Shown here: positions 27,433-37,964 of the stretch, piece by piece | Position numbering within the stretch: the stretch's first letter is position 1 | How the letters are laid out: each line of letters opens with the position of its first letter | IMG/VR virus record: IMGVR_UViG_3300027852_000027 | Span: 1-37,964 of that record | Reading direction: 5' to 3' (one strand) | Length of the DNA stretch: 37,964 bases | From: a virus | Position numbers and translations under genes: made by a program | Notes under the pieces: model-generated | The model's database searches: none | Seen by the model: only the letters and a program-made list of their open reading frames with translations | Told to the model about the DNA's origin: nothing

Positions 27433-27708
27433 ATGGCTACAGTTTGTTTAGTTCCAGAGTTAATAAGCCCTATTCAAACGGGTGATTTATTAGTATCTGA
27501 AACAAAAATAGATATTGAGACAGGTGACTTATTAGGCGCTATAGCTAAAGAAGATATAGCTACAGGTGGCTTATTAGGCGCATCCGCCAAGGTAGATATA
27601 GTAACTGGTGATTTACTGGTTGCTTCTGCTAAAGTCGATATAGTTACAGGTGGGCTAGTGCCTTCGCTTGCTAAAAACGGGTTAACTCCTTTAGGTGTTT
27701 GCGTATGA
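27433..27708 (+). CDS. Tail-region protein of five 14-residue repeats (91 aa)
   Basis: Most of the protein is five tandem repeats of 14 residues with the core 'TG(D/G)LL...AK.DI' (TGDLLGAIAKEDIA, TGGLLGASAKVDIV, TGDLLVASAKVDIV and variants). The repeats could make a small beta-solenoid or filament. No family is recognised. It lies between tape measure and distal tail genes. Its stop overlaps the next ATG. Confidence 0.6.
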   Translation: MATVCLVPELISPIQTGDLLVSETKIDIETGDLLGAIAKEDIATGGLLGASAKVDIVTGDLLVASAKVDIVTGGLVPSLAKNGLTPLGVCV

Positions 27709-33620: not shown

Positions 33621-33722
33621 TCATTGGCTGCATAAATATACACACTGAGACGGAATCATTAACACAGCAACTATAATAAACAGTAACAGTAAAAATAAAA
33701 ACTGATTGGCTTTATGCTTCAT
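33621..33722 (-). CDS. Small membrane/secreted peptide next to endolysin (33 aa)
   Basis: A basic start (MKHKANQ), a strong hydrophobic stretch (FLFLLLLFIIVAVLMI) and an end with two cysteines (CVYLCSQ) make up this peptide, just upstream of the endolysin. It may be a spanin-like or accessory lysis peptide. Length is short for known spanins. It has GGTGAATT before the ATG. Confidence 0.4.
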   Translation of the reverse strand: MKHKANQFLFLLLLFIIVAVLMIPSQCVYLCSQ

Positions 33723-33887
33723 AATTCACCCATTTCTAAATGTAACAAGCGTGGAAAGGCGGAACTTTTAAAATCCTTTCCGTGTTTGCACAAAAAACGC
33801 GGAACAGTTAAAACTATAAGTCACTGTAAACATTAACAATTCTATTTTTGCTATTCCGTGTTTGCGCAATTCCTGCTAATTGTAGTG
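33723..33887. other. Noncoding gap with repeated 16-mers and small inverted repeats
   Basis: TTCCGTGTTTGC(A/G)CAA occurs twice, at 33778-33793 and 33854-33869, differing in one base. CGGAAC also occurs twice between and before them, and GGAAAGG/CCTTTCC forms a hairpin near 33753-33780. No ORF fits. The repeats could be operators or a worn recombination site at the end of the array. Confidence 0.5.
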
Positions 33888-34055
33888 TTATGTTACTAAA
33901 CCAAGCTCGGTTGCCAATCCAGTTAAAACAACCTTAAATAATAGTGGTCTATCTTTGTGCCAATTAATCAAGGTGCGCTCTTTTACACCTGTTAACTCTG
34001 ACATTTGACGCAAGGATTTTAACCCTTGCGCTTTGGCTTTCTTTGATGCTGTCAT
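33888..34055 (-). CDS. Small HTH regulator in the terminal cassette-like unit (55 aa)
   Basis: The protein begins MTASKKAKAQGLKSLRQMSE and has the helix-turn-helix 'QMSELTGVKERTLINWHKDRPLLFKVVLTG', a pattern common in small phage and integron-type regulators (S/T-G-V then W). It ends in LGLVT, like two cassette genes, and the DNA of the end is identical over 21 bases to them. Its ATG overlaps the stop of the 89-aa gene (TAATG). It may regulate the promoter at 34375-34402 or the lysis genes. Confidence 0.65.
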   Translation of the reverse strand: MTASKKAKAQGLKSLRQMSELTGVKERTLINWHKDRPLLFKVVLTGLATELGLVT

Positions 34056-34324
34056 TAACATTCACCTTTTAACTTGTAAAACATGTATTGATCAAACGCG
34101 CTTTTTTTATCAACATTAGTTAAAAGAGAAAAACAAAACTCGCTAAACTTTTTAACTTCTGCTGCAACGTATGCTTGAACTGTATTAGTGTGATCTTCTT
34201 CGTTCATACCTAAAAATATTTCTTTCATTCCGTCTTGCTCTAGTGAAGCACTAACCATATTGATAAGGCTTAAAACATCGTTGGTAGTTACGTTCATTGC
34301 TTGTGCTAGTGTAGTTACGTTCAT
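34055..34324 (-). CDS. Hypothetical protein with repeated N-terminal MNVTT (89 aa)
   Basis: The N-terminus carries a duplicated motif (MNVTTLAQAMNVTT), from an exact 14-nt duplication at 34284-34297 and 34311-34324, so the second Met (27 bases later) could also be the start. The rest is helical (EEDHTNTVQAYVAAEVKKFSEFCFSLL). No family is recognised. It lies behind a strong promoter and is coupled to the HTH gene. Confidence 0.6.
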   Translation of the reverse strand: MNVTTLAQAMNVTTNDVLSLINMVSASLEQDGMKEIFLGMNEEDHTNTVQAYVAAEVKKFSEFCFSLLTNVDKKSAFDQYMFYKLKGEC

Positions 34325-34442: not shown

Positions 34443-34520
34443 AACATAGCAATAAATTCACTCTGACACGCAACAGCTCGCTGCGCTCCTTTGTGCTTAG
34501 CCGCATAATTAGCGGTTATA
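34443..34520 (-). other. attC-like site A
   Basis: Minus strand, it runs from TATAACC through CGCTAATTATGCGGCT, an inner AGGAGCGCAGCGAGCT hairpin and ends TTGCTATGTT. The arms are imperfectly complementary (AATTATGCGG against the part before TTTATTGC). It follows the 59-aa gene, whose stop is six bases away. Confidence 0.7.
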
Positions 34521-34525
34521 TTGCC

Positions 34526-34705
34526 TTACATCGGTATACTCATTGCGTCAAAGAAAAAATCAACAGCACAGTCATACATTGTCGGGTGGTACATCATATA
34601 CCCATCGCCACTAACTTTATTAAAGTCATCCTTTATTTTTATTACCGCTCTTTTTTCGTACTTATTCAGCTCTTCAAACCAGTGTTTCGTTTCTTTATCA
34701 TTCAT
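34526..34705 (-). CDS. Cassette-borne small acidic protein (59 aa)
   Basis: This ORF lies between sites B and A and was found by translating the gap. The protein begins MNDKETKHWFEELNKYEK and ends FFFDAMSIPM. It has a helical first half and a Y/M-rich middle. The family is unknown. Its ATG has an AGAAAGAAA stretch upstream. The fit between two sites supports it as a real cassette gene. Confidence 0.6.
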   Translation of the reverse strand: MNDKETKHWFEELNKYEKRAVIKIKDDFNKVSGDGYMMYHPTMYDCAVDFFFDAMSIPM

Positions 34706-34740
34706 TTTCTTTCTCGCTTATATTGTTGTGTAACCAGTAA

Positions 34741-34799
34741 ACATAACAACCTAATTCATGGTCGGACTCAGCAAGCTGAGCCACATAATTAATGGTTAG
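34741..34799 (-). other. attC-like site B (copy of the D/H type)
   Basis: Minus strand, it runs ACTAACCATTAATTATG, then GGCTCAGCTTGCTGAGTCC (a stem with one bulged base), then CATGAATTAGGTTGTTATG. It is nearly identical to sites D and H. It follows the 60-aa zinc-ribbon gene. Confidence 0.8.
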
Positions 34800-34803
34800 T
34801 GAG

Positions 34804-34986
34804 CTAGTGAATAATACTTGGCGCGGTGCCATAAAGCTTATCTAGTTCAGGGTTTTTAGCCCCGAATCTCCAAGCCTGAATAGCTTCCGCCCATTCACTT
34901 TCACACTGCTCACATCTATCTTCATAGTATTTTAGTTCTTCATCTGTCAATTGTTGATGGCATTCTCTGCAATTTTTAATATTCAT
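34804..34986 (-). CDS. Cassette-borne zinc-ribbon protein (60 aa)
   Basis: The ATG at 34986 gives 60 residues. An upstream TTG is less likely. Two C-x2-C pairs (NCREC near 5-9, RCEQC at 25-29) form a zinc ribbon, followed by an acidic/aromatic C-terminus (EWAEAIQAWRFGAKNP). Zinc-ribbon mini-proteins of this size are common in phages and cassettes. The function is unknown. Confidence 0.65.
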   Translation of the reverse strand: MNIKNCRECHQQLTDEELKYYEDRCEQCESEWAEAIQAWRFGAKNPELDKLYGTAPSIIH

Positions 34987-35002
34987 TATCAATCCTTAAG
35001 CT

Positions 35003-35080
35003 CACTAACAACACGCTCAATCGTGACCGCTACTGCTCGCTACGCTCTCAAAACGTAGCGGCACATTAGCTGCGGGTTAT
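35003..35080 (-). other. attC-like site C
   Basis: Minus strand, it starts ATAACCCGCAGCTAATGTGCCGCTACG, has an inner GAGCGTAGCGAGC hairpin and ends GTTGTTAGTG. The arms pair CCGCTACG with CGTAGCGG-type segments. It follows the 62-aa gene. Confidence 0.75.
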
Positions 35081-35089
35081 ATTGCACTT

Positions 35090-35278
35090 CTATTTCAGTG
35101 ACCATCCAGAGTTATTCAACCTAACCTCGTGATTTTCATTAACCTGAGACGTCCACACGTACTCACTTATTTTCTTATCAAGGGTTATTTCTTGGCACCC
35201 TTTATTGTCCCACCCAATAATTACATCGCCTTTTTTAAATTCGTACCCGTCCATAATCAACTCGTTACATCTCTTCAT
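35090..35278 (-). CDS. Cassette-borne small protein (62 aa)
   Basis: The protein (MKRCNELIMDGYEFKKGDVI) is a strand-rich SH3/OB-like sequence with 'GDVIIGWDNKGCQEITLD'. No family is recognised. AGGTAGAG is the ribosome binding site. It lies between sites D and C. Confidence 0.65.
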   Translation of the reverse strand: MKRCNELIMDGYEFKKGDVIIGWDNKGCQEITLDKKISEYVWTSQVNENHEVRLNNSGWSLK

Positions 35279-35307
35279 TTCAACTCTACCTTCTGTGTAT
35301 GTGCAAA

Positions 35308-35366
35308 ATATAACAACCTAATTCATGTTCGGACTCAGCAAGCTGAGCCGCATAATTAATGGTTAT
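35308..35366 (-). other. attC-like site D
   Basis: Minus strand, it is ATAACCATTAATTATG, GGCTCAGCTTGCTGAGTCC, GAACATGAATTAGGTTGTTATATT. It differs from sites B and H by only a few bases, and shares about 18 bases more upstream with H. Confidence 0.85.
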
Positions 35367-35560
35367 ATTGCCTTAGTCTTTAAGTCATTCCACCAAGCGG
35401 TTCGCTCAATAGCTCTCAACCTCTTAATCACCTTTCCTCTTGGGTCATAGCGTTTTGCGCCTTTTGCCTTTCTATTATCCCACGCTTTACCGTCTTTCTT
35501 ATTAAGCCGCGAGTTATTAAATTTCAATCTTGTGTCTGCTAGTCTTTCTAAATATGTCAT
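35363..35560 (-). CDS. Cassette-borne basic protein (65 aa)
   Basis: The ATG at 35560 has GGAGAATAAAC in front, so the longer frame is not used. The protein is very basic (NKKDGKAWDNRKAKGAKRYDP and KVIKRLRAIERTAWW), which suggests nucleic-acid binding. Its stop lies inside the first bases of site D, as is usual for cassettes. The function is unknown. Confidence 0.65.
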   Translation of the reverse strand: MTYLERLADTRLKFNNSRLNKKDGKAWDNRKAKGAKRYDPRGKVIKRLRAIERTAWWNDLKTKAI

Positions 35561-35587
35561 TCGTTTATTCTCCTGAGTTAACGGCAA

Positions 35588-35666
35588 ATATAACAACCGT
35601 AATTAAATCTGACTGTAACTGCTGGCTACGCTGGCGCATTTTCAGCAGTTTATTACATGGTTAGGC
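35588..35666 (-). other. attC-like site E, best match to the attC consensus
   Basis: Minus strand, it starts GCCTAAC, a perfect RYYYAAC box, continues CATGTAATAAACTGCTGAAAA, has a CCAGCGTAGCCAGCAG inner arm and ends GTTGTTATATT. AAACTGCTG and CAGCAGTT pair as arms. It follows the 85-aa gene by 3 bases. Confidence 0.85.
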
Positions 35667-35669
35667 GGA

Positions 35670-35927
35670 TTAGTAAATAACCTTTTTGTATACATCACCA
35701 CGAGCAGTTATTAACAAATCATCATTGCCCTTCACAACCTTTACACAGTCATCTAAATGCGCCAACTCATAACCATGCTTCATCAAATTAGCAAGCTTAT
35801 ACTCTGCCCTTTTAATAAATCCTTTTGGGTATAAGTCATCGCGCCTAACAACGGTTTTCAAGTCGGATTCGCTAACAGTTGTCTTCTTTTCTGGCAATAA
35901 AAGCTCAGTGTATTTTTCTGTTTCCAT
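35670..35927 (-). CDS. Cassette-borne hypothetical protein (85 aa)
   Basis: The ATG at 35927 has GAGGAGA ten bases upstream. A GTG at 35954 would lengthen it, but the RBS favours the ATG. The protein has a short acidic start, a basic middle (VVRRDDLYPKGFIKRAEYK) and an end with 'DLLITARGDVYKKVIY'. No family is recognised. Confidence 0.65.
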   Translation of the reverse strand: METEKYTELLLPEKKTTVSESDLKTVVRRDDLYPKGFIKRAEYKLANLMKHGYELAHLDDCVKVVKGNDDLLITARGDVYKKVIY

Positions 35928-35945
35928 AGCATTTTTCTCCTCTGA

Positions 35946-35976
35946 TGCGCTCACACGCTTAAAACTAAGGTTATGT
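35946..35976 (-). other. Truncated attC-like remnant F
   Basis: Minus strand, ATAACCTTAG then TTTTAAGCGTGTGAGCGC lies between two cassette genes. Only one arm and one ATAACC end remain, and no GTTAT end follows. It may be a deleted site that fused two cassettes. Confidence 0.5.
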
Positions 35977-36216
35977 TACTAAACCAAGCTTGGCTTTTAG
36001 TTCTAGTATTTCTTTCATGTCGCTCAATGACCTTATATGATCAAAAACAACGGTAAAGTCATAATCAACATAATGTCGCGTTTCACCAACCCAGTGAAAC
36101 CAGTTATTAATTACGTCAGTGTCCGTCTGCAAGTATTTAATTTCTTTCCTGTAATTACTAAACGCTATATGCGTAGCACCTTCTGGTGCTTTTTCTAATA
36201 TTTCTTTGTCATTCAT
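35971..36216 (-). CDS. Cassette-borne hypothetical protein (81 aa)
   Basis: The ATG at 36216 follows AGGATTGAT, the same short leader as the 93-aa cassette gene at 37743. The protein (NDKEILEKAPEGATHIAFSN) carries the 'PEGATH' start seen in many small phage proteins, and ends in KLGLVT, like two other proteins of the array. Two Trp-rich strands (NNWFHWVGETRHYVDYDF) follow. The function is unknown. Confidence 0.7.
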   Translation of the reverse strand: MNDKEILEKAPEGATHIAFSNYRKEIKYLQTDTDVINNWFHWVGETRHYVDYDFTVVFDHIRSLSDMKEILELKAKLGLVT

Positions 36217-36242
36217 TTTATCAATCCTATTCAGTGGCGGTA

Positions 36243-36322
36243 ACATAACAACAAATTCATGTCGGAAATTAACTGCTCGCTACGCTCACTACAACGTTAA
36301 TTCCGCATAATTCAAAGGTTAT
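36243..36322 (-). other. attC-like site G
   Basis: Minus strand, ATAACCTTTGAATTATGCGGAATTAACG, an inner AGTGAGCGTAGCGAGCAGTT hairpin and CATGAATTTGTTGTTATGTT. It pairs TTATGCGGAATTAACG with complementary bases on the other arm and is close to site J. Confidence 0.85.
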
Positions 36323-36564
36323 ATTGCACAAAGCTTTTCTCTTAATTCTCTGGCTCTACCTGCTTTTCGTTCAAACTGAATTATAGCTATAGCCAAATCT
36401 TGCAGGTGTTCATGACCATACATCCCTAAGCCATTAGTTAACGCTACATGGTGAGGGTGCATAAATCCTTGCCCCGTCTCACTATTACCATCATCACAAT
36501 GCAAATAATGGCGATCACCTTTACCATCTGTAATGCTCCATAACCCTTGAGTTACCTTTTTCAT
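36319..36564 (-). CDS. Cassette-borne hypothetical protein (81 aa)
   Basis: The sequence has a Gly/His/Asp-rich middle (GDRHYLHCDDGNSETGQGF, MHPHHVAL) that could bind metal, then a helix (DLAIAIIQFERKAGRAREL). No family is recognised. Its stop (TAA in ATATAACC) lies inside site G. GAGGTCAAGATA precedes the ATG. Confidence 0.65.
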   Translation of the reverse strand: MKKVTQGLWSITDGKGDRHYLHCDDGNSETGQGFMHPHHVALTNGLGMYGHEHLQDLAIAIIQFERKAGRARELREKLCAI

Positions 36565-36593
36565 TATCTTGACCTCTTCTGTGTATGTGCAAA

Positions 36594-36654
36594 ATATAAC
36601 AACCTAATTCATGGTCGGACTCAGCAAGCTGAGCCACATAATTAATGGTTAGGT
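36594..36654 (-). other. attC-like site H
   Basis: Minus strand, CCTAACCATTAATTATG, GGCTCAGCTTGCTGAGTCC, GACCATGAATTAGGTTGTTATATT. It is nearly identical to B and D, with an ACCTAAC end that fits the RYYYAAC box. Confidence 0.85.
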
Positions 36655-36661
36655 GTTTCTT

Positions 36662-36943
36662 TTACCAACTCTGCCTAGGTGGCACAACTGACTCATTTCC
36701 ATCATACTCATCTATTTCAAATTCTGCATTATCTGGTATTTCTTCTATTTGTAGATCGGCACACATTCCGTTAGCTTCTTCACCTAAATCCTCTATAACT
36801 TTTATTAAGTCAGGATCAGCTCTATCATCGCCATAAAAATCATAACAACCAACAGGCTTACCTTTTAACTCAGTTAAAATCTTGCATGCTTTATCGCTCA
36901 ACCCAAACCCGCCAAAACACGCATTATATGCTACTTTTTTCAT
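36662..36943 (-). CDS. Cassette-borne conserved-type protein (93 aa)
   Basis: The start 'KVAYNACFGGFGLSDKACKIL' and 'DLIKVIEDLGEEANG' and 'EIPDNAEFEIDEYDGNE' correspond to a family of small proteins ('CFGGFxLS') found in phages and mobile regions. Its function is unknown as far as I know. The gene overlaps the small zinc-ribbon ORF upstream by 20 bases. AGAAAGAGAG is the ribosome binding site. Confidence 0.7.
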   Translation of the reverse strand: MKKVAYNACFGGFGLSDKACKILTELKGKPVGCYDFYGDDRADPDLIKVIEDLGEEANGMCADLQIEEIPDNAEFEIDEYDGNESVVPPRQSW

Positions 36944-37055
36944 CTCTCTTTCTCCATTGTTTTAATCTGCATTTATTGCAACAGTATTTAGCTCTTTTAG
37001 TGCCGTAAAACTCAGTGTTGCATTCTTTGTTTTGACACTTCTTTTTCTCAATCAT
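36924..37055 (-). CDS. Cassette-borne mini zinc-ribbon protein (43 aa)
   Basis: The peptide (MIEKKKCQNKECNTEFYGT...) has C-x4-C and CC-x2-C pairs typical of a small zinc ribbon with basic ends. It is in the same cassette as the 93-aa gene and overlaps it by 20 bases. It is too short for most gene finders, but the cysteine pattern supports it. Confidence 0.6.
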   Translation of the reverse strand: MIEKKKCQNKECNTEFYGTKRAKYCCNKCRLKQWRKRDEKSSI

Positions 37056-37119
37056 GGGTAGAGTGTAACGCAGTTTCGTTTCAAGTCAAGAAATAAAAAG
37101 GCGTATTCCAAAAGAAAAC

Positions 37120-37197
37120 ACCTAACAACTACAATCAGTCGGAATTTAACAGCTTAACGCTTCGCTACTGTTAAATCCGCTGTTGTTCAGGTTAGCG
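37120..37197 (-). other. attC-like site I
   Basis: Minus strand, it starts GCTAACCTGAACAACAGCGGATTTAACAG, has an inner AGCGAAGCGTTAAGCTGTTAAATTCCG arm and ends TTGTTAGGTG. GGATTTAACAG and CTGTTAAATTCC are almost perfect arms. It follows the 48-aa gene. Confidence 0.85.
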
Positions 37198-37201
37198 TGC
37201 A

Positions 37202-37348
37202 TTACTCTATAAACTCATATCGCGTGTAAATAGGTATAAATAAAAACCAGTATGTGTAAACCCTGTATAACGCTCTTTCCTTTTTAGTGTCGAACTTACC
37301 TCTAAAAATATCTTTTTTCGCTGTACTGTGCGTTTGTCTAAAAATCAT
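37202..37348 (-). CDS. Cassette-borne small protein (48 aa)
   Basis: The ATG at 37348 follows GGAGAGAAAG, so earlier starts are less likely. The protein is basic (FRQTHSTAKKDIFRGKFDTKK), then aromatic (YRVYTYWFLFIPIYTRYEF), perhaps membrane-associated at the end. No family is recognised. It lies between sites J and I. Confidence 0.55.
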   Translation of the reverse strand: MIFRQTHSTAKKDIFRGKFDTKKERALYRVYTYWFLFIPIYTRYEFIE

Positions 37349-37388
37349 TTTCTTTCTCTCCATTAATTTTGGTGTTAACGTAAAACTC

Positions 37389-37466
37389 GCTAACAACTAA
37401 TTCATAACGGAAATTAACAGTTCGCTACGCTCCTAAACGTTAATTCCGCATAATTCAAGGGTTATG
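37389..37466 (-). other. attC-like site J
   Basis: Minus strand, ATAACCCTTGAATTATGCGGAATTAACG, an inner AGGAGCGTAGCGAACTG part and GTTATGAATTAGTTGTTAGCG. It closely matches site G and pairs GGAATTAACG with CGTTAATTTCC-type bases. The stop of the 93-aa gene lies in its first bases. Confidence 0.85.
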
Positions 37467-37743
37467 TTACTAAACCAAGCTTGGCTTCAAAATAATCAGC
37501 GAATAAATCTTTTAGTAAAATACTCGCTATGCGGTCAACCTCAAAATCATCTATAGGCATACCGTTATTAAATCGCTCTACCCTGTGATAATTATTATAA
37601 ATCAACTCTATATCCCATAATTTCATGTTACTTGGTGCACTTCTGATTGGGTCAGGGTTAAAATCAACCTCTGCATAAACACCATCGCTTTTTGCTATCG
37701 TATTAATTTTTACTGCAATATCCAACAGTGTAGTATCTTTCAT
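37462..37743 (-). CDS. First cassette-borne protein (93 aa)
   Basis: The ATG at 37743 follows AAGGATTGAT, so the longer frame reading through site K is rejected. The protein (KDTTLLDIAVKINTIAKSDG) is acidic and has an aromatic middle (WDIELIYNNYHRVERF), and its end 'AKLGLVT' matches two other array proteins. It is the first cassette after the phage operon. The function is unknown. Confidence 0.7.
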   Translation of the reverse strand: MKDTTLLDIAVKINTIAKSDGVYAEVDFNPDPIRSAPSNMKLWDIELIYNNYHRVERFNNGMPIDDFEVDRIASILLKDLFADYFEAKLGLVT

Positions 37744-37770
37744 TTTATCAATCCTTTTCAGTAACGGTAA

Positions 37771-37800
37771 CATAGCAACCGTAATCAAAATCTGACCAGC
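37771..37800 (-). other. Half attC-like site K at the head of the array
   Basis: Minus strand, GGTCAGATTTTGATTACGG then TTGCTATGTTACCG. This copies the downstream arm of site E (CAGATTTAATTACGGTTGTTATATT) but has no upstream arm. It is thus the junction between phage DNA and the first cassette. It could be the core of an insertion site. Confidence 0.6.
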
Positions 37801-37889
37801 CACTCTATAACCTCATAACCACCAATAGCAACAAGAGCAGCCACCACTAACCAAAACAGCACCATATTATTTCTTTCTCGATTATCCAT
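37785..37889 (-). CDS. Small single-TM membrane peptide (34 aa)
   Basis: This ORF encodes MDNRERNNMVLFWLVVAALV and a short rest, with one strong membrane segment. Its ATG overlaps the stop of the 53-aa gene across the genome join, and its TGA lies inside half-site K. It is the last phage-type gene before the array, so its end may have been remodelled by the cassette insertion. The function is unknown. Confidence 0.5.
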   Translation of the reverse strand: MDNRERNNMVLFWLVVAALVAIGGYEVIEWLVRF

Positions 37890-37964
37890 TAGTTAATCAC
37901 TCTGTTATCAATTTTAGTGTAGTCATCAGTAAAAGCGTTAAAGTCATCTATCGAATCACGTTCA
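37843..37964. repeat. Terminal direct repeat, right copy
   Basis: This is an exact copy of bases 1-122. The unique genome length is therefore about 37,842 bp. Features listed at 1-122 apply here too, including the 3' end of the 53-aa gene and the start of the 34-aa membrane ORF. Confidence 0.97.

Follow-up and report, generated by a model that had tools for sequence, protein, structure and literature searches.

The cassette array and its attC sites

The window analysed here is an entire virus record (IMGVR_UViG_3300027852_000027, 37,964 bases), and it carries an integron-style cassette array in which about ten small leftward genes are arranged as cassettes between attC sites. We confirm that this array is real. 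It spans from 33.83 kb to about 37.80 kb and holds nine full attC sites, a truncated tenth and one degenerate junction. The original prediction, made from the DNA letters without database searches, had recognized the attC-like sites and the leftward mini-genes and had set the bounds at 34443-37800; the right end holds, whereas the left end lies further out. An attC site consists of an R'' box (RYYYAAC) and an R' box (GTTRRRY) around an imperfect hairpin with L boxes, and the window sites follow this plan, with a degenerate R'' (TAGC) in site H. The hairpin GAGCGTAGCGAGC, which had been noted as often central to the sites, is frequent in the array and is not diagnostic of attC.

As a reference we used 66 attC sites that adjoin intI in 16 bacterial integrons and whose orientation is hence known. 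One covariance model (R1) was built from 34 of these sites, the other (R2) from 35 attC sites of other phages with the window held out; both were run with default filters, and runs with the filters off missed long-loop sites, probably through a hit-length limit. When both strands of the 38 kb window are searched with R2 at E<=10, nine matches are returned: eight are sites of the array, all on the plus strand, and the ninth is a chance match at 14 kb. The eight are D (36243-36324), the best match in the window with 43.0 bits and E=7e-9, C (36594-36654; 33.5 bits, E=3e-6), B (35308-35368; 33.4 bits, E=3e-6), E (37388-37467; 27.7 bits), G (35588-35666; 24.2 bits), A (34741-34801; 24.0 bits), I (37120-37197; 18.4 bits) and F (35003-35082). 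Site H (34444-34521) completes the nine. Direct reading of the sequence adds the truncated site J (37767-37797), a 5' half cut by a phage gene that forms the right boundary of the array, and the degenerate junction (about 35955-35980), which retains only the R' box GGTTATGTTAC; H, J and the junction also lie on the plus strand. A covariance search had been suggested for the minus strand; the models built here do find the sites, but on the plus strand.

Across other viral contigs totalling 1.73 Mb (0.98 Mb from amidase-related phages and 0.75 Mb from others), R2 produces no match below E=0.3, and R1 matches a single site in the window, D (18.5 bits, E=0.01). Because R2 finds the window sites, R1 finds nearly none of them and R2 is silent in the other viral contigs, the window sites are diverged, phage-type attC sites. 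On the arrays of sister phages R1 reaches 23.4 bits (contig L178) and 23.3 bits (L175), and it also matches the phages of Qi et al. (2023; PMC9892861). A passage of that paper quotes a cut-off of 20 bits, for a different model, and the window sites score lower than this under R1. An Rfam scan of the window gave no matches, a pattern scan for the window attC subtype in genome contigs gave 20 matches that all look like chance, and a 15-mer from the attC 3' half gave mostly chance matches in viral contigs.

In a true cassette the R'' box is complementary to the start of the same cassette, the two meeting in the circle. For every unit, the 14 bases that follow GTTA at one end were set against those at the other. 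The ends of one and the same cassette score 5.6 on average (n=46) versus 2.0 for other pairs (n=417, p~1e-16), and for the paired ends within a single linear site the score stays at this background level (2.0, n=55). Bacterial arrays follow the same trend (4.2 versus 2.9), and the ends of the window cassette between sites C and I match over about 16 bases. Judged by these ends, each open reading frame (ORF) is a cassette whose ends match as in a closed circle. The reading of the sites as terminators was rejected on this complementarity and on the absence of T-runs after the sense hairpin at nearly all sites; together with the matches to the phage attC model, this bears out the earlier view that they are not unrelated terminators.

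The mini-genes, all on the minus strand, are genuine: where homologues exist, the differences from them fall mainly at third codon positions of the minus frame. From left to right they begin with a helix-turn-helix (HTH) regulator (33888-34061; 89% at the amino acid level to L178) and the MNVTT ORF (34055-34324; 83% to L178, 73% in the array-less phages L271 and L272). These are followed by ORFs of 59 amino acids (34526-34705), 62 (34804-34992; weakly zinc-ribbon-like), 62 (35090-35278), 77 (35363-35596; the start likely lies further in, at MTYLER), 94 (35670-35954), 91 (35971-36246; phrog_6698/20106-like), 81 (36319-36564) and 93 amino acids (36662-36943; phage family phrog_16527, E=9e-30, with homologues in other phages), by a zinc finger of 43 amino acids (36924-37055) with a conserved TTGACN16TACACT-like promoter upstream, and by ORFs of 64 (37202-37396) and about 100 amino acids (37462-37803; 80% to L175). 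A scan of viral contigs with the protein of the 37462 cassette returned no match. The ORFs ending at 33888, 35971 and 37462 share an LGLVT* tail, encoded by GTTATGTTACTAAACCAAGC immediately past the R' point, and this tail is present also in the L175 homologue of the 37462 ORF. In L271 and L272 (8001-8258) the MNVTT protein is an ordinary gene in phages that have no attC, so it may be a phage gene turned cassette or the reverse.

The window cassettes are small and mostly without known function. A DNA methyltransferase and the DNA-modification protein Mom are encoded in sister arrays; both are restriction-evasion functions, and their presence suggests that the cargo consists of counter-defence and host take-over genes. 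Since the sigma-70-like promoter of the zinc-finger cassette is kept in three phages, some cassettes at least are perhaps capable of their own transcription; promoter-like matches in the array region as a whole are not above chance. The Pc promoter of a complete integron would read into the array along attC, the direction opposite to that of the window genes.

The record has an exact direct terminal repeat of 122 bp (1-122 is identical with 37843-37964) and closes on it, with a circular length of about 37,842 bp; because the termini are identical, the window is most likely a complete genome. Across this closed genome there are no matches to the tyrosine-recombinase family PF00589, neither an intI nor another tyrosine recombinase. 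The element therefore lacks the intI of a complete integron, and by the models built here it has the make-up of a cluster of attC sites lacking integrase (CALIN), that is, at least two attC sites with intI not nearby. This supports the original prediction that a tailed phage carries a CALIN-like array and lacks intI. Among ten array-bearing phage records, L210 is the sole carrier of a tyrosine recombinase (a 386-amino-acid frame; G568:C1:25948-26442).

Polarity of sites and genes

Sites and genes had been described as all in one orientation. They are indeed uniform, but their polarity was overlooked: by bacterial yardsticks the attC sites of the window have plus polarity, and all cassette genes lie on the minus strand. 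Orientation was scored with a profile of bacterial half-sites, which is correct for 66 of 66 bacterial sites with their own locus left out; applied to the window, it assigns eight of the nine sites to the plus strand and leaves one tie. Extra unpaired bases on one side of attC set the strand choice. Independently of the profile, they fall in the 5' half (plus sense) at eight of the nine window sites, as they do at 28 versus 7 other phage sites and at 41 versus 5 bacterial ones.

The direction of the genes was counted from the longest ORF in each interval, for the window with eight related phage contigs and for bacterial integrons. Among 49 phage cassettes, 46 run opposite to their attC, none in the same direction, and three are ambiguous; among 62 bacterial cassettes, 60 run with attC, none against it, and two are ambiguous. 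In the window itself eight of nine intervals oppose attC, none agrees and one is ambiguous, and the usual same-direction arrangement, which is not strictly defining, is thus absent. Our re-analysis of unrelated phages finds the attC strand opposite to the annotated genes in PH101 (H101/PH101) and MW202573, whereas in Tetrasphaera phage TJE1 the annotated genes follow attC, as is canonical. Text searches of PMC9892861 returned no mention of the inversion.

Cassette turnover, host integrons and genome setting

At the left end of the array lies a site that differs from attC (33831-33893, within a conserved stretch at 33700-33893, plus strand) and is conserved in sister phages. It too contains hairpins, ends in AGTGTTAT, with an R-box-like AGTGTTA and a break point G|TTA, and takes the attI position when the array is read in attC polarity. 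Eight arrays have it in common (the window, L091, L006, L178 and L311, with a shorter form in L211, L212 and L213), and the sequence to its right is different in each of them. Between L178 and L311, for example, the 151 bp leading up to GTTA are 94.7% identical, and similarity then drops to chance level. Hairpins that resemble terminators of leftward transcription are present in the left-end regions as well. We regard the left-end site as a candidate attI-like platform.

Cassette content among the related phages switches exactly at the G|TT point. The cassette with the MNVTT and HTH genes is common to the window and L178, in both accompanied by attC H, and the homology extends from the left R' through the genes and attC H and ends at the next R'; L178 has an extra stretch between the two genes. 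This block reads as a canonical cassette unit in plus polarity. Where attC sites are shared, homology reaches at least 10 bases beyond R'' in 8 of the 40 pairs, as against a single pair in which it does so beyond R' (p=0.048). We also observed module-like attC bodies, up to 98% identical and with unrelated ORFs on both sides, in L091, L175, L178, L179, L210, L211, L213, L214, L311 and the window. Site F, for instance, is 97.6% identical to a site of L178, and site E 97.4% identical to one of L179, each flanked there by other ORFs.

When R2 was run on 296 genomes from one bacterial order, a single clear case emerged: genome G364 carries intI and a chromosomal array of canonical cassettes. In this array (L258, 13935-14287) a single cassette with a phage-type attC, a leader like that of phage cassettes and an inverted ORF sits between ordinary ones; its ends match (GTTATATTTGCC and GTTATGTTTGCC), and all attC sites of the array, its own included, lie on one strand. 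Because this inverted cassette sits among canonical ones, it provides natural evidence that IntI may handle phage-type and bacterial cassettes alike in plus polarity; we infer that the transfer went from phage to host. The leader pattern GGCAAAYATAACAA, sought in 395 genomes of the order, yields a phage-type case only in G364 among the loci kept. G364 also harbors several copies of a cassette that lacks a gene and measures about 335 bp (GTTAGTTCAACCGGG...); they lie between gene cassettes (L258 13500-17795, L265, L266).

The original prediction proposed that the phage could move cassettes between integron-bearing hosts and that the same cassettes be sought in integrons. The one phage-type cassette in a bacterial integron lends this weak support. 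Against it, none of the window cassette proteins finds a match in the 395 genomes, although the empty answer from this search is weak, and the ORFs, all inverted, would be antisense to the host Pc promoter.

The virus is a tailed phage by its head, tail and terminase genes and probably a siphovirus. Its terminase is 82% identical to that of Vibrio breoganii phages and 74% to that of Pseudoalteromonas phages. The terminase-related isolates Vibrio 1.085.O, Pseudoalteromonas AL and PHS3, Aeromonas 62AhydR11PP and Alteromonas XX1924 are without an array, and P12002L gave no matches with R1/R2-type attC models. A leftward gene block (353-210, 208-47 and 37889-37785, the last encoding a phage membrane peptide on the minus strand just upstream of the array in the transcription sense) runs into the array, and past the left end, downstream, follows the gene for an N-acetylmuramoyl-L-alanine amidase (33645-33217, minus strand). 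Elsewhere in the genome, an ORF at 3918-4376 matches GIY-YIG/homing-endonuclease phage families, and a protein built of TGDLL.ASAKVDI/TGG-type repeats (27433-27708) adjoins the tape-measure gene.

Origin and maintenance of the inverted array

We think it likely that the window holds an integron cassette array in a complete, integrase-less siphovirus genome, an array that host IntI would serve and that would draw on its own pool of inverted cassettes. In an infected integron-bearing host, IntI would act in trans on the folded bottom strand of attC, excising and inserting cassettes that come mostly from other phages. The array would be transcribed leftward within the gene block that ends with the amidase, counter to attC polarity. 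Because the phage would thus read the array against attC polarity, only cassettes with inverted ORFs would be useful to it; this would retain the inversion and keep the phage pool separate from the sense-oriented pool of the hosts.

Several points weigh against this reading. The window sites are weak under the bacterial model (one match, 18.5 bits). The count of ORF strands depends on the longest-ORF rule, and the orientation search in phages looks for a TAACA end, although the folding asymmetry and the bacterial profile concur with it. Most shared attC bodies are common to phages that share neither neighbouring ORF, which simple exchange at R' does not explain. Capture by a host was found just once, and the cassette protein of 88 amino acids in G364 has no homologue in the phage collection. 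For recombination of the window sites by IntI at G|TT the evidence is indirect, namely the break points at G|TTA and the capture in a host integron.

Tentatively, and at somewhat less than even chances, the array may be a dedicated 'split integron' of gammaproteobacterial phages, in which a conserved attI-like end and inverted cassettes are combined with the recombinase of the host, and a counter-defence pool is isolated by its orientation. The bottom strand would then lie on the displaced, non-template strand, coupling expression and recombination, and phage cassettes would fall silent, as antisense, once captured by a host integron.

An alternative explanation, possible though unlikely, is a founder accident: an early array happened to oppose phage transcription, its cassettes arose from phage genes and were shuffled by host IntI, and the left-end site is a terminator with a terminal half-site rather than an attI-like platform. 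The leftward terminator-like hairpins of the left-end regions fit this idea, and TJE1 illustrates that a phage array need not be inverted. However, two unrelated phages, H101/PH101 and MW202573, show the inversion as well, and the conservation of the left-end site up to G|TTA, with a differing first cassette, is what one would expect of an insertion platform. It is very improbable that the array is a CALIN of the ordinary kind, for which the phage would have acquired part of a chromosomal integron from a host and would carry host cassettes. Such captures are reported from Vibrio anguillarum prophages in a passage of PMC9892861, and attC-like sites without intI would agree with one; however, the window ORFs are inverted whereas none of the 62 host cassettes is clearly so, the window attC subtype does not occur beyond chance in genome contigs, the cassette proteins are missing from the 395 genomes (a weak empty answer), phage families, phrog_16527 for one, are represented in the cargo, the sites and the left end are common to related phages, and no bacterial integron was found that matches the window in its cassettes, their order and their orientation. 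Hardly credible is the notion that the hairpins merely resemble attC and are in fact terminators, sites of RNA processing or dispersed repeats of the phage: the low scores of most window sites under the bacterial model and the recurrence of attC bodies on their own between phages speak for it, but it is already largely refuted by the complementarity of the cassette ends, and the near absence of T-runs, the core boxes, the asymmetric unpaired bases, the 23 bits reached by sister arrays under the bacterial model and the cassette of the same type placed precisely between attC sites in G364 all oppose it.

To our knowledge, attC sites in phages had previously been reported mainly as scattered captures. 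The likely phage-maintained array of the window resembles the sedentary chromosomal integrons of Gammaproteobacteria in attC architecture, the G|TT exchange point, small ORFs and the complementarity of cassette ends; unlike in those integrons, the ORFs run against attC, intI is missing and the cassette ends match over a longer stretch. CALINs in phages are already known, since passages of Qi et al. (2023; PMC9892861) describe tailed phages whose attC arrays lack intI; five of the six phage attC sites tested there recombined with attI1 through IntI1. Like the window, the CALINs of PH101 (KR534323, Pseudoalteromonas) and MW202573 (Myoviridae) have attC opposite to the genes and no intI; the window array is longer (10 units) and belongs to a different phage group, and here the inversion is systematic and compared with bacteria, alongside a conserved left-end site and a host capture. 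TJE1 likewise bears an attC array without intI, although its genes run along attC. The systematic inversion and the shared end site are what is new over known phage CALINs.

These phages thus form a group with a common cassette system that follows an orientation rule of its own, uses a distinct end site and offers numerous genes for exchange, in sister arrays including restriction-evasion enzymes. The system offers a mechanism for the quick turnover of phage accessory genes, and it makes the traffic between phages and host integrons testable, as an ORF that runs against its attC provides a simple mark for phage-derived cassettes within bacterial integrons.

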